Assembly: GCF_002005205.3 (NCBI RefSeq)
Contig: NZ_CP019702.2
Location: 1,554,001 to 1,618,000 of the forward strand
Length of the DNA stretch: 64,000 bases
From: Rhizobium rhizogenes
GTDB lineage: Bacteria > Pseudomonadota > Alphaproteobacteria > Rhizobiales > Rhizobiaceae
Direction of reading: 5' to 3'
Shown here: in pieces, positions 19,473 to 23,260 of the stretch
Position numbering within the stretch: the first letter of the stretch is position 1
How the letters are laid out: every line of letters starts with the position of its first letter
Made by a program: the position numbers and the translations under genes
The notes under the pieces: generated by a model
The model's input: only the letters and a program-made list of their open reading frames with translations
Database searches by the model: none
What the model was told of the DNA's origin: nothing

Positions 19473-19583
19473 TCTGCACTCCCAGTCACGGCCAAGATAT
19501 CACCCGGCGTCTATTTCGCGCACTTTCCACGGCTTGCTGGGGTGTTGATTGCCACTGAGAGCTTCCTTCATGGATGCTCTCTC

Positions 19584-19610
19584 TGAATAGCCCCGAGTTT
19601 GGTAGACACC
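19584..19610. repeat. IS3 terminal inverted repeat, OrfB side
   Basis: Begins TGAATAGCCCCGAG and continues to AGACACC. It mirrors the repeat at 22062-22088 with three mismatches and marks the right end of the IS relative to its transcription. Confidence 0.8.
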
Positions 19611-19617
19611 CCTCGGG

Positions 19618-19806
19618 TTAAATTTTCTGCTGCTTCTCGAACTCGACGGGCGACAGCATCCCGTTTCTGACGTGCTTGCGTTTCGGGTTGTAGAACATTT
19701 CGATGTAGTCGAACACATCCTGGCGTGCTTCATCGCGTGAACGGTAAACCCTGCGACGTATCCGTTCACGCTTTAGAAGATTGAAGAAGGTCTCGGCCAC
19801 CGCATT
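19618..19806 (-). pseudogene. IS3 OrfB transposase, 3' fragment
   Basis: The last ~62 residues of the DDE transposase: the stretch NAVAETFFNLLKRERI carries the third catalytic residue (Glu in VAE), followed by the usual IS3 tail with YNPKRKHVRNGMLSPVEFE. It joins directly to the fragment ending at 21065 if the IS110 element is removed. As it stands it has no proper start. Confidence 0.85.
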
Positions 19807-19822
19807 GATGCTCCTATATCTG

Positions 19823-20869
19823 TCAAGGCCCAGAGAACTGGGAAACAGATGGCGTGCAGAGATGGCGATATATCTCCCTGATGATATATCGTTTTAGGCA
19901 TCGAACGATTTCCCGCCTGGTTTTGCCTTCCGCAGTTCGGCGCGCCGCGTATGTTTTCGTTCTGTCGTCATCACGCATTCGAACGACCGCAACACGATAA
20001 ATGGCGGCATTAGCCTGTCGATTGCCGCCTCGATTGAGGCGCATTCGGTTGGTCTTGCCGCTGGAGGCCGGAATTGGGCATACACCGCACATTTTTGCCA
20101 AGGCAGATTCCGATTTGATGCGTTCGGGATTGTCACCGATCAGGATCAACATCTCGGCGACGGTTATCGTTGATATGCCGAACGACTTCATCAATGCAGG
20201 AGCTTTGCTGATCACCATGCGTTCGAGCTCACACTCGTGTTCCGCAATTTCCTCGTGCAGCATCAACCAACGACGGGCGATGGCCCGCATGGCAACTTTT
20301 GCCGACGAACTCGGCGATAAAATCTCGCCTGGTCGAAACGCGGCGATGTGACGGATCAAGGCGATTGGCCCTTTGATCTGGTCGAGCGCATCACGCAGAT
20401 CGGACGGTGCGTTTATTATCAACGTTCGCAAAGTGATCATTGCCTGCGACTTGGCCTTTACAGCGCTGTCGCGGGCGACTTTGATATGCCTGATCATTTC
20501 CGATGACCCTGTTTGAGCTTTCGCCAAAGCTGTGGCTTGACCATTCAGAACCGAACGCGCTGCGCTTTCGGCATCGAGACTGTCGGATTTGCCGTGAAGG
20601 TAGCGGATTTGTCGGTTGGGGCGCATCACATCGAGAACCGTATGTCCTTGAGCCAACAGTTCCCGGGACAAACCTGCTCCATAGGAGCCGGTCCCCTCTA
20701 TGCCGAATGCCTTGATATGGCCGAGCCTGGATGCCCAGGTCTCCAAGCTCGAGTATCCTTTTCGTGTCGCTGGTATAGTGATGGTGCCTAAACGAGCGCC
20801 GTGTGCATTGATGGCAACGGCAACATGGTTGGCCTTGTGGGTATCGACGCCGACGATGATATGATCCAT
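19823..20869 (-). CDS. IS110-family transposase (DEDD recombinase)
   Basis: 348 residues and apparently intact. The N-terminal RuvC-like DEDD domain shows Asp9 (IIVGVDTHKANH), Glu58 (AFGIEGTGSYGAGL) and Asp96/Asp99 (HGKSDSLDAESAA). The C-terminal Transposase_20 domain holds the conserved region PASSGKTNRMRLNRGGNRQAN with the nucleophilic serine. Enzymes of this family recombine the element with its target through a circular intermediate and are guided by an RNA transcribed from the element's non-coding end. It stops 16 bases inside the element's downstream edge. Confidence 0.93.
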   Translation of the reverse strand: MDHIIVGVDTHKANHVAVAINAHGARLGTITIPATRKGYSSLETWASRLGHIKAFGIEGTGSYGAGLSRELLAQGHTVLDVMRPNRQIRYLHGKSDSLDAESAARSVLNGQATALAKAQTGSSEMIRHIKVARDSAVKAKSQAMITLRTLIINAPSDLRDALDQIKGPIALIRHIAAFRPGEILSPSSSAKVAMRAIARRWLMLHEEIAEHECELERMVISKAPALMKSFGISTITVAEMLILIGDNPERIKSESALAKMCGVCPIPASSGKTNRMRLNRGGNRQANAAIYRVAVVRMRDDDRTKTYAARRTAEGKTRREIVRCLKRYIIREIYRHLCTPSVSQFSGP

Positions 20870-21064
20870 TGGGTGCCCTTCGGTTAAAATAGCCCGGGCA
20901 CCGATCGAAGAGGACAGGACTGTGATGGTACGCTGACCGTCAAGCTCCTATGAAGTCACGTCTCGCCCGCTGCCGGGGCAACCTGATGGACGACACGTCA
21001 ACGCAATGACACGCGATCAATCATAGCATGGGTCAGGCCATCAGGCTGCTATAGCACATTCACA
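20870..21064 (-). ncRNA. Candidate IS110 bridge RNA (non-coding left end)
   Basis: The 195-base non-coding end upstream of the transposase. Read in the transposase sense, an 8-bp stem (CCTGATGG at 21045-21038, CCATCAGG at 20989-20982) closes a loop containing TGCTATGA (21028-21021), which matches 7 of 8 bases of the left target TGCCATGA, and CATTG (21008-21004), complementary to CAATG across the right junction. Farther 3', ATAGGAGC (20951-20944) repeats the sequence just inside the element's right end (19817-19810), and TCACAG (20925-20920) is complementary to CTGTGA at the left junction. These fit target- and donor-binding guides of a bridge RNA; the RNA itself is inferred. Confidence 0.6.
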
Positions 21065-21764
21065 GTCATGGCAGTTGCCGCGTCGGCTCATCGAGTGAAC
21101 CAGATTGTGGTGCCTGAGGAACGAGGCCCAGTCCATGCTGGTGAACTGGGAGCCCTGATCCGAGTGGATCAGCACCTTGTTCTTCGGCTTGCGCCGCCAC
21201 ACCGCCATGAGCAGAGCCTGCAACACGACGTCGGTGGTTTGGCGGCTCTGCATTGCCCAGCCGATCACACGACGCGAATAGAGATCAATGACATCAGCGC
21301 AAATGCGAAGCATTTGTCGCGTGGGCCAGATAGGCGAAGCCCTCACAGGTCCGGATATAGGTGATGTCCGTGACCCAGACCTTGTCCGGAGCCGCTACAT
21401 CAAACTGCCGGTCGAGCGAGTTATCGACGACGACGGAAGGCTTGCCGCCGTAGATGCCGGGGCGGCGTTTGTAGCCAATCTGCGCCTTGATCCCGGCTAG
21501 CCGGGTCAGACGCGCGACCCGGTTCGGGCAGCACACCTCTCCCTGATCGAGAAGGTCGTCGTACAGCTTGCGATAACCGTAAACCTTGCCGCTCTCTTCC
21601 CATGCCTTCAGGAGCAGATCGGTCTGTCGCTTGTCCTCGCTGGCTCGCCTGCTCAGCGGGTTATTCAGCCATGTGTAAAATCCACTCGGATGAACCCGCA
21701 AAAGGCGGCACATCGTCCGCACAGAGAACTACAAGCGATGCAGGGCAATGAATGCGTATTTCAC
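21065..21764 (-). pseudogene. IS3 OrfB transposase, 5' part, with stop and frameshift
   Basis: Starts at a GTG overlapping the OrfA stop (GTGA). After KYAFIALHRL a TAG replaces an expected Gln codon. The rve integrase domain follows (VWVTDITYIRTCEGFAYLA, first Asp), is broken by a net 28-base insertion near 21293-21323, and continues in another frame (DVIDLYSRRVIGWAMQSRQT; LIHSDQGSQFTS with the second Asp) until the IS110 junction after RRGNCHD. Three separate defects make it non-functional. Confidence 0.88.
21297..21320. repeat. Short hairpin-forming insertion within OrfB
   Basis: GCGCAAATGC (21297-21306), a GAA loop and GCATTTGTCGC (21310-21320) form a near-perfect stem with one bulged T. 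It lies in the extra ~28 bases that interrupt the transposase between YLA and VIDLYSRR, so it appears to be a tiny palindromic insertion. Whether it is a mobile repeat or a local duplication cannot be told here. Confidence 0.5.
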
Positions 21765-22029
21765 TTTGCATCCCTGGCGAAATACGCGGCCGCTTTTTTT
21801 AGGATGTCTCGCTCCTCGATAACGTGAGCCAATTCCCTCTTCAGCCGCCTGATCTCTTCGGCTTCGTCGTTGCCCTTGGCGTTCGAGGCCGAAAACTTCT
21901 TTTTCCACTCGTACAAAGAATGCTGCCTCACCCCACCCGCTGCGAAACCTCCGCAACCGGATAGCCTCGCTCCGTGATCTGACGCACCGCGTCACGCTTA
22001 AACTCGTCGCTGAAATTCGATTTGCTCAT
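21761..22029 (-). pseudogene. IS3 OrfA (HTH_Tnp_1), frameshifted
   Basis: Begins with the typical IS3 OrfA start (MSKSNFSDEFKRDAVRQITE and a segment ending VAEVSQRVG), the helix-turn-helix that binds the IS ends. A single base seems missing after the codons for QRVG, giving an immediate TGA near 21940; the remainder (SLYEWKKKFSASNAKGNDE, then the leucine-zipper-like EIRRLKRELAHVIEERDIL) reads in the shifted frame to 21761. Without OrfA the programmed OrfAB fusion cannot be made. Confidence 0.85.
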
Positions 22030-22061
22030 GAGGCGCTTCTTGCCTCAAAATTAGGAAAGAA

Positions 22062-22088
22062 GGCGTCTACAAATCTCGGGGCTATTCA
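22062..22088. repeat. IS3 terminal inverted repeat, OrfA side
   Basis: Reverse complement begins TGAATAGCCCCGAG and ends GTAGACGCC, the partner of the repeat at 19584-19610. It stands 33 bases upstream of the OrfA start. Confidence 0.8.
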
Positions 22089-22163
22089 ACTTGACCTTGC
22101 TATATGCTACGTGTGGTGCAAGGGATTTGTTCATGACCGAGGCTCTCATTTCAAATTAGATCA

Positions 22164-22619
22164 TTACTGTTCGCCAAAAATATCGAGCATCGCTTTATTG
22201 TTTTTTGTGCGCGCCATATCGAGAGAAGATCGCCCCGCCAAATTTTTTCTAGTTGGATTAGCACCGAGCTCGACAAGGGCCTTTATCAATTTTATGTTGG
22301 GGCGAGGATTCAAAACCGATGTCCAAAGAGCGTCATTTCCATACTTGTCAATTAAACTAATTGAGGCTCCTTTTTTAAGAAGATCCTCGGCAAATTCAAA
22401 CATGGATCTGGAAATCATATATTGCAAAGCAGTCTGACCATTATCATCTTGATGGTCTATATTCTTGCTTTTTGACATGAAGTACGGAACAAACTCCGGT
22501 CTATATGCTATAGATTCTTGCAAATAGCTATGATTTTCTTCGCCTATTAATTCTAGGTCTTCGATGTCATTCGGATCGAAATTTTGGTCATTTCTGAGCT
22601 CTGCGAAGTAATTTGGCAT
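22164..22619 (-). CDS. Ankyrin-repeat protein, probable immunity partner
   Basis: 151 residues with about three ankyrin repeats: DDNGQTALQYMISRSMFEFAEDLLKKGA, DKYGNDALWTSVL...IKLIKALVELGA and NLAGRSSLDMARTKNNKAMLD. There is no signal peptide, so it is cytoplasmic. It follows a nuclease-like toxin domain by 14 bases on the same strand. Ankyrin proteins are frequent immunity partners in polymorphic toxin loci, which makes protection against that nuclease the best guess. The gene is clearly more AT-rich than the surrounding chromosome, suggesting transfer. Confidence 0.7.
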   Translation of the reverse strand: MPNYFAELRNDQNFDPNDIEDLELIGEENHSYLQESIAYRPEFVPYFMSKSKNIDHQDDNGQTALQYMISRSMFEFAEDLLKKGASISLIDKYGNDALWTSVLNPRPNIKLIKALVELGANPTRKNLAGRSSLDMARTKNNKAMLDIFGEQ

Positions 22620-22633
22620 ATTATTCGTCCTGC

Positions 22634-23260
22634 TTACTGTTGCTCGTATCTATGGCTGCGGTTGCCATTGATTGATTCAGGCTGATAATTATTGGGGCCT
22701 CTATATTTCTGCAAGAATTCATCTTTTGAAATTCGACCGTCCATATAGTCACGATGGAGAGTCCTATACTCATGGCCCGGCTTGTGCGCCATATCCCATT
22801 GGCCGGCTCTTGACTTAGATTGGTCCCAAGTCAACTTTTCACCCGTATTGGGATCGTAAACATCACCATTTTCATCTTTTGCTCTTTCCCATACAGCACC
22901 GACTTGTCCATCAGCATATTTAGGGCGGCTTTTAGGATCGGAGTAAGGCTTTTCTTCTTGCTTACTTCTTGTGCCACCGTCTCCGTTATTGGTCGTTTTG
23001 GTGGCCTCTTCCTTGGCCTTTTTTGCCTCCTTAGCTTTTCTTGCTGCCTCCTCAGCCTCTTTCAGTCGATGCTCTGCCTTGGCAACATCTTCAAGCGCTT
23101 CTGCAACTTCCCCAGCAGCCTTCGCTTTTTTGAAAGGATTTACGACACCGACAGCGACAGCTGCTAAATGTCCTCCAGCTTGCGCGACGCCTCCTTCATC
23201 ATAAGCGTTTGTCACACCCGTCCAAAGACCTTTAAGCGCATCGCCGGTCCAAGTCGCCAC
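22634..23260 (-). CDS. Orphan GH-E-type HNH/EndoVII nuclease toxin domain, N-terminus missing
   Basis: The last ~100 residues fit the GH-E nuclease family of polymorphic toxins: YADGQVGAVWERAKDENG, DPNTGEKLTWDQ, QWDMAHKPGHEYRTLHRDY, SKDEFLQKYRGPNNYQPE and NRSHRYE. Ala replaces the usual Gly before the catalytic His. The region before it (about 1-90) has a glycine/alanine-rich pretoxin-like stretch and a charged coiled coil (EALEDVAKAEHRLKEAEEAA). The frame is open only to 23335, where a TAA stands, and the GTG at 23260 has no good ribosome site. No trafficking domain (Rhs, PAAR, filamentous) is present, so this looks like the cut-off C-terminus of a larger effector. Confidence 0.65.
   Translation of the reverse strand: MATWTGDALKGLWTGVTNAYDEGGVAQAGGHLAAVAVGVVNPFKKAKAAGEVAEALEDVAKAEHRLKEAEEAARKAKEAKKAKEEATKTTNNGDGGTRSKQEEKPYSDPKSRPKYADGQVGAVWERAKDENGDVYDPNTGEKLTWDQSKSRAGQWDMAHKPGHEYRTLHRDYMDGRISKDEFLQKYRGPNNYQPESINGNRSHRYEQQ

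Follow-up and report, generated by a model that had tools for sequence, protein, structure and literature searches.

An IS110-group element inserted in an IS3 transposase gene carries a candidate bridge RNA whose guides fit both its target and its own ends

The window (the whole stretch of DNA analyzed, 64,000 nucleotides) very probably contains an IS110-group element with an RNA-guided recombinase, in which a bridge RNA from the left end would pair both with a target in an IS3 transposase gene and with the element's own joined ends. The RNA guide appears to have addressed the element to its present site. The ends of the element, the empty site, a stem and the covariation of the guides with both target and donor are observed directly in the sequences compared. 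The original prediction was of an RNA-guided recombinase captured together with its guide and target, and the stem, the guide-target covariation and a pair of closely related elements (L033 and L035) all argue for it.

The element is inserted within an IS3 transposase gene, as had been proposed, and the interruption is confirmed by two uninterrupted IS3 relatives (L060 and L061) on Rhizobium leguminosarum and Shinella plasmids. Across the join both of these relatives read TGCCATGACAATGCGG, with the joined flanks matching at 76/79 and 75/79 positions, and the empty site CATGAC^AATGCGG is present in other plasmids. Because the uninterrupted relatives read GGCAACTGCCATGACAATGCGGT across the join, the element can be delimited as 1258 bp (19807..21064, minus strand, as are all parts of the element and of the interrupted IS3 given below), and comparison with them reveals no target duplication at its junctions. 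The insertion separates an Asp codon (GAC) of the IS3 transposase from the following Asn codon (AAT), the left break being placed after the Asp codon because the left targets of four relatives end in GAT. The target comprises a left part, CTGCCATGAC (21065..21074), and a right part, AATGCGGTG (19798..19806), both in the IS3 transposase. No exact empty site was found in the element's own genome, where eight places lie within two mismatches of the 16-base joined target, the best of them with one mismatch.

The recombinase gene (19823..20869) encodes 348 amino acids with DEDD and Transposase_20 domains (Pfam PF01548 [DEDD], 1.2e-14; PF02371 [Tnp], 7.9e-18) and matches the NCBIfam model NF033542, "IS110 family RNA-guided transposase," at 153 bits (cut-off, 140). 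Compared by sequence with solved structures, the protein gave no match at an E value of 0.001. Directly upstream of the gene lies a noncoding left end of 195 nt (20870..21064), compared to a right end of only 16 nt (19807..19822) containing ATAGGAGCATC. A sequence resembling a promoter −35 box, TTGACA, in the right end overlaps the end of the recombinase gene and may serve as a promoter; TTGAC..ATAGGAG is found again in many relatives.

By Pfam, the interrupted IS3 element retains a 5′ part with HTH_21 and rve domains (21065..22090) and a 3′ part with an rve_2 domain (19583..19806), the outer ends of both being approximate. Within the 5′ part, the region at 21290-21350 carries about 28 extra bases compared to other plasmid copies (an alignment of 333 query bases to 305), and the two open reading frames of the interrupted IS3 overlap out of frame, with the frame broken near 21294-21346. 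These two features indicate that the IS3 gene was also broken independently of IS110. Farther out, at 22164-23260, a short open reading frame with what look like ankyrin-like repeats adjoins another whose C-terminal part gives the impression of a polymorphic-toxin end.

Relatives of the element were drawn from several searches. A scan of genome contigs yielded 19 loci; a class-wide search at an E value of 1e-60 gave a match in 4 of 385 genomes and a family-wide search at 1e-90 in 2 of 199 (own genome included in both); a plasmid search matched 1039 records, 23 of which were compared; and a search of viral contigs found no relatives. The resulting set comprised 49 sequences (L001-L048 and the window), with guides and ends placed by script in 35 and missing in 14. 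Two sequences, L015 and L031, were entered by hand for their right side alone, the left target of L039 was set by hand (a poor fit) and a spurious right target was removed from L047. Left out of the counts were L001 and L002, which are copies of the window element, and the ISEc21-like L023-L025, whose ends were not placed; L067 was added later and enters no count. Further IS110-family genes are annotated near the studied elements (L032:1-559, L034:2754-3785, L046:1-505), which suggests that IS110 elements may cluster. The left flank of L039 (Halomonas, 1260-1290) contains CATAGGAGC, which resembles the right end of another IS110, as if there had once been tandem elements.

A stem-closed loop carrying TGCTATGA, predicted to match the left target, is present in the left end, with TGCTATGA at 21021-21028 (minus strand) enclosed by CCTGATGG and CCATCAGG; this stem extends to 12 bp with one G.U pair, its arms being GCAGCCTGATGG (5′, 21038..21049) and CCATCAGGTTGC (3′, 20978..20989). 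The original prediction of a stem shared across the family was borne out, since both arms fold together and show compensatory changes in relatives inserted elsewhere. Across 26 aligned sequences the left end follows a single plan: a stem arm, TGAC, the left guide, a small GAC/GTC hairpin, the right guide, TGTCG and the other stem arm, followed by GTGAC, ATAGGAGC, a spacer, the right donor guide and GTCCTGTCC. In the target loop, 91.1% of cells are paired, compared to 73.8% in shuffled and 31-50% in slid controls; two-sided changes occur in 83 cells, compared to 29.8 after shuffling; and the covariation score is 0.528, compared to 0.200 shuffled (0/500) and 0.07-0.15 slid. As the structure was derived from the same alignment, the slid control is biased in its favor.

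A covariance model built from 24 relatives, with the window element and L037 excluded, recovers the candidate bridge or seek RNA in the window at 20912..21055 (131 bits, E value of 9.1e-31), with the target loop followed by the donor loop. The model also matches L015 (95.9 bits), L020 (93.4), the ISEc21-annotated L041 (63.2) and L023 (53.1), and weakly L048 (13.1 bits, E value of 0.076), with no match in L036 or in L008, which has only 67 upstream bases. Among 289 genomes of the class it matched 3, own genome included, and an Rfam search of the window returned no family at its gathering score. The predicted RNA is conserved and structured, with both loops; the pairs of the donor loop vary little, which makes the test of that loop a weak one.

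The target loop contains two guides, placed by covariation and by an offset scan: a left target guide, ATGCTATGAT (21020..21029), and a right target guide, CATTGCGTTG (20999..21008). In the window element the left guide fits its target at 9/10 positions, and the 3′ six bases of the right guide, GCGTTG (20999-21004), pair 6/6 with CAATGC (one G.U) and covary with it; all ten right-guide bases pair with CAATGCGGTG if three G.U pairs are counted. It had been suggested that the guides would covary with the target of each copy, and across the relatives they do. Left guide and left target pair in 232/280 cells over 28 distinct pairs (183.4 ± 6.3 when shuffled), and the last six bases of the right guide pair with the right target in 144/150 cells over 25 distinct pairs (128.2 ± 2.35 when shuffled), neither value being reached in 50,000 shuffles (0/50,000 each). 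Examples include L004 (guide and target both TCTTATGA), L005 (TTCCCTGA with TTCCCTGA, and CCCTGTG with CATAGGG), L003 (TGTTTG with CAAACA) and the cyanobacterial L009 (TAAGTTGAC with TAAGTTGAC).

The offset scan, which covered 175 offsets per target, strand and anchor for 26 left and 23 right pairs (without L015, L031, L028 [right] and L039 [left]), placed the left-target peak at the left guide (z of 7.96; next best on the same strand and anchor, 3.19) and the right-target peak at the right guide (z of 7.08; next best, 2.71), both on the expected strands. Smaller antisense peaks for the left targets near the left guide (z of 3.96 and 3.54) may reflect the partial self-complementarity of guides such as CTACGAT. 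Anchoring on the left guide gives a weak right-target signal (z of 3.02 at the guide and 3.27 elsewhere), as spacer lengths differ.

One element of the original prediction required correction. CATTG, proposed as the right guide, is present at 21004-21008 (minus strand), but the guide role falls instead to GCGTTG, five bases away. As a guide, CATTG pairs with the right flanks in 82/115 cells, compared to 78.8 ± 1.55 expected, a value reached by 1986 of 50,000 shuffles; in the same 5-mer test against the right flank of relatives, GCGTTG scores 112 compared to 99.7 ± 1.79, with 0/50,000.

The second loop is predicted to read the element's own ends. As had been noted, ATAGGAGC (20944..20951) repeats the element's right end, being identical to 19810-19817, and forms the left donor guide; TCACAG (20920..20925), the right donor guide, complements CTGTGA at the left end, bearing out the claimed match to the left junction. 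The left donor guide is nearly invariant, with guide and right end both ATAGGAGC in 21 of 25 rows. The right donor guide varies with the left end in four classes (TCACAG/CTGTGA, TCGCAG/CTGCGA, TGACAG/CTGTCA and TGAGTG/CACTCA), the first base of the end being C or T, and pairs with it in 168/168 cells over 28 rows that were not dereplicated (136.7 ± 4.8 when shuffled; 0/50,000). The donor guides hence match the element's own ends. That four matches in this order are unlikely by chance also held up: the full ordered set appeared in 0 of 20,000 dinucleotide shuffles of the 195-nt left end, in which TGCTATGA alone was matched 970 times, CATTG 6647, ATAGGAGC 44 and TCACAG 992. On this showing the CATTG match appears uninformative by itself, TGCTATGA and TCACAG seem to add little and ATAGGAGC more, and we regard order and conservation as decisive.

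These patterns bear on the proposal that the stem is a mere regulatory leader of the recombinase gene, with the target chosen by the protein alone and the guide matches coincidental. Such a role would suit a left end that lies directly upstream of the gene and whose fold is of no unusual stability (the fold energy by itself is unremarkable, z = −1.01). A leader would not, however, be expected to covary with DNA outside the element on the expected strands, nor would its right donor guide be expected to covary with the left end, and the one-base guide change that matches the target between L033 and L035 is equally hard to place; we consider a mere leader barely credible. L033 and L035, both from Microvirga, show 23 differences over 1286 positions; the first 166 nt contain a single one, at position 42 within the left guide. 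The guide difference fits the left-target difference at that base, while the left targets differ at three more positions without a guide difference. L035 (1217-1277) sits in an open frame resembling L-aspartate oxidase on the left, with nadA annotated upstream, and its right flank seemingly belongs to another gene; that the guides nevertheless fit the two flanks suggests a rearrangement involving two insertions.

Not every relative fits well. Left fits are poor in L039 (5/9), L038 and L042 (6/9 each), L047 (4 strict and 1 wobble of 10) and L067, and the right fit is poor in L028 (4/6). Identical guides at unrelated targets, named in the original prediction as an observation that would tell against it, were seen in part. 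In Lichenicola, two plasmids carry the identical elements L028 and L029, which have the same left IS3 flank and different right flanks, one of them non-IS3. Elements with a common left guide (L006 and L007; L032, L034 and L042) occupy sites that are similar, though not identical, with mismatches.

The preferred target was assessed by joining the 60-bp flanks at the junction for 25 distinct two-ended sites. In eighteen of these the junction falls within the IS3-type motif G-(N/D/S)-x-x-D^N (L006 has D^T), after which come A or S and, three residues on, E; this Glu, a few codons on from the Asp-Asn junction, we take to be the catalytic E of the DDE triad. The other seven sites are L003, L005, L009-L011, L028 (in which the left half alone is IS3) and L035. 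Left flanks of ten of the 18 IS3-type loci matched rve in 10/10 cases at an E value of ≤1e-5, eight of them above the Pfam cut-off, rve being broader than IS3; in the records of L026, L028, L029 and L043 the neighbor of the element is named as an IS3 family transposase.

So common a junction, shared by 18 of 25 two-ended sites in IS3-type genes, could be taken to mean that an old insertion was inherited along with IS3 and that guide and target codiverged by descent. The interrupted IS3 genes nevertheless differ strongly near the junction, even between the near-identical L032 and L034, and L005, L009-L011 and L035 lie at other sites that are matched by their guides. When shuffling was confined to five clades, the observed fit was rarely reached (left, 233 compared to 213.6 ± 4.1, 0/50,000; right, 145 compared to 133.2 ± 3.1, 9/50,000); these shuffles allow only in part for kinship among the sequences, and clade membership was decided by eye on host and RNA (L022 was grouped with the actinobacterial clade, though its genome belongs to the window's class). 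Shared descent is a highly improbable source of the overall fit between guide and target, though it may account for single pairs.

The history of this particular copy is a separate question. The own genome holds two identical IS110 copies, both at the same IS3 site; their flanks agree fully over 195 bp to the left and over 224 bp to the right, as far as the end of the IS3, and two further IS3 matches in the genome are partial. The bridge RNA may accordingly be real and this copy may still have reached CATGACAATGC without RNA guidance, having been carried or copied with an IS3 that was already interrupted, as two identical copies within identical stretches of IS3 would suggest. Beyond the left 195 bp, however, the two IS3 copies differ, which implies either two insertions or one insertion followed by recombination. 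Passive carriage would also leave the first insertion to be explained, and the guide fits the site at 9/10 positions on the left and 6/6 on the right. We judge arrival without guidance to be unlikely, though it merits serious consideration, and favor guidance of the element to its site by its own RNA.

Under RNA guidance, transcription of the left end would yield a bridge RNA, the promoter probably arising when the element circularizes and its two ends meet. In the first loop, the 5′ strand (ATGCTATGAT) would pair with the bottom DNA strand on the left side of the cut in the IS3 target; the 3′ strand would pair with the top strand on the right side, through GCGTTG and perhaps through as many as 10 nt. 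Pairing with the joined element ends would fall to the second loop, in which ATAGGAGC would read the right end and TCACAG the left end, and the recombinase would then join target and donor. The target would be the Asp-Asn-coding stretch of IS3-type transposase genes, a few codons before Glu. Transcription, binding of the RNA by the protein, catalysis and activity of the present copy are steps that we infer.

At the cut, the target reads C/T and then A (A in 26 of 27 rows) and the donor C/T and then T (24 rows) or A (5 rows). A core dinucleotide common to target and donor, as in IS621, was not found in the window element, whose target and donor have one C in common, and in its subgroup they share only one base at the cut; CA is common to both in L039, L040 and L044. 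In IS621, as described by Hiraizumi et al. (PMC11208158), additional guide bases pair with the partner DNA once strands have been exchanged. In the present set, the right target guide is followed by A in 28/28 and the cut-side C of the donor is preceded by T in 25/25; the right donor guide is followed by TC in 27/28, and GA precedes the cut-side base of the target in 28/29. These bases are compatible with handshake pairing, but because they are invariant they do not prove it.

Codon position offers a further lead. At the 18 IS3-inserted loci, G.U pairs occupy 22/90 third-position cells compared to 3/180 first- and second-position cells; U is the last base of the left guide in 14/18 loci, and a G of the right guide faces the Asn third base in 14/18. 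A U or G reads both synonymous codons, so a single guide could give access to this catalytic site in many IS3 transposases of proteobacteria and actinobacteria. It is possible, though we hold the idea only tentatively, that this IS110 clade is an RNA-guided parasite of IS3 with guides in effect written against a protein motif through U or G at codon third positions. If the wobble pattern were selected, a guide RNA could recognize a protein motif despite synonymous codons. However, 11 of the 22 third-position G.U pairs fall on a single base, the last of the left guide (without it, 11/72 compared to 3/180), plain mismatches are also commoner at third positions (16/90 compared to 18/180), and synonymous target variation alone would yield much of the pattern. 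Given that the cells are related and that target variation is greatest at third positions, we treat the wobble pattern as a lead and not a result.

The significance of the element lies in its having a guide and target that could be read from one natural insertion and then confirmed by relatives. The natural guide-target pairs, including the single-change pair L033 and L035, provide material for studying mismatch and wobble tolerance in bridge recombinases. A literature search, with preprints and most subscription papers outside its scope, found no report of IS110 elements preferring other insertion sequences as such. Siddiquee et al. (2024, PMC11187229) do describe an IS110 element aimed at IS3 transposase codons, and we make no claim that the Asp^Asn site is unpublished.

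Three known systems invite comparison. In ISEc21, the target is the codons around the second D of IS3-family transposases; RNA copurified with the transposase, and the noncoding region or its RNA was required for movement (PMC11187229). The present element resembles the ISEc21 seekRNA system in having an upstream noncoding RNA, a match to the bottom strand that lies 5′ of the one to the top strand, insertion with no duplication and a target in catalytic codons of IS3-family transposases, with natural redirection described in a relative (ISMch6) (PMC11187229); the RNA model from the present family matches the ISEc21-annotated L041 at 63.2 bits. In contrast, recombinase identity is 42.9% in the ISEc21-annotated record H48/L041, and whereas ISEc21 is reported to insert at the codons around the second D (PMC11187229), the present elements lie further on, at Asp^Asn. 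Measured against the ISEc21 subgroup, then, the RNA is related and the target is IS3, but the codon site is another and protein identity is 42.9%.

Like IS621, the element has its RNA in the left end, target loop before donor loop, with 5′ loop strands that read the bottom DNA strand (8-9 nt) and 3′ strands that read the top strand (4-7 nt) (PMC11208160), and it has bases compatible with the handshake guides described in PMC11208158. Unlike IS621, its target is IS3 coding sequence and not REP, and there is no common CT core (PMC11208160). A common core marks IS621 and its close kin, and ISEc21 is reported to insert without duplication; assignment to the IS621 type is therefore barred, while the wider IS110 group is not. 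IS1111-type elements likewise pair a DEDD recombinase with a guide RNA, but their RNA lies mostly downstream of the gene (PMC11187229, PMC11208160), whereas here it is upstream. As bridge RNAs with covarying guides (Durrant et al. 2024, PMC11208160) and the IS3 target of ISEc21 are already published, neither the mechanism nor the IS3 target is new. What is added here is another codon site in IS3, at which relatives in several groups of bacteria insert and for which many guide variants occur naturally: the mechanism is ordinary, and the example is unusually clean.
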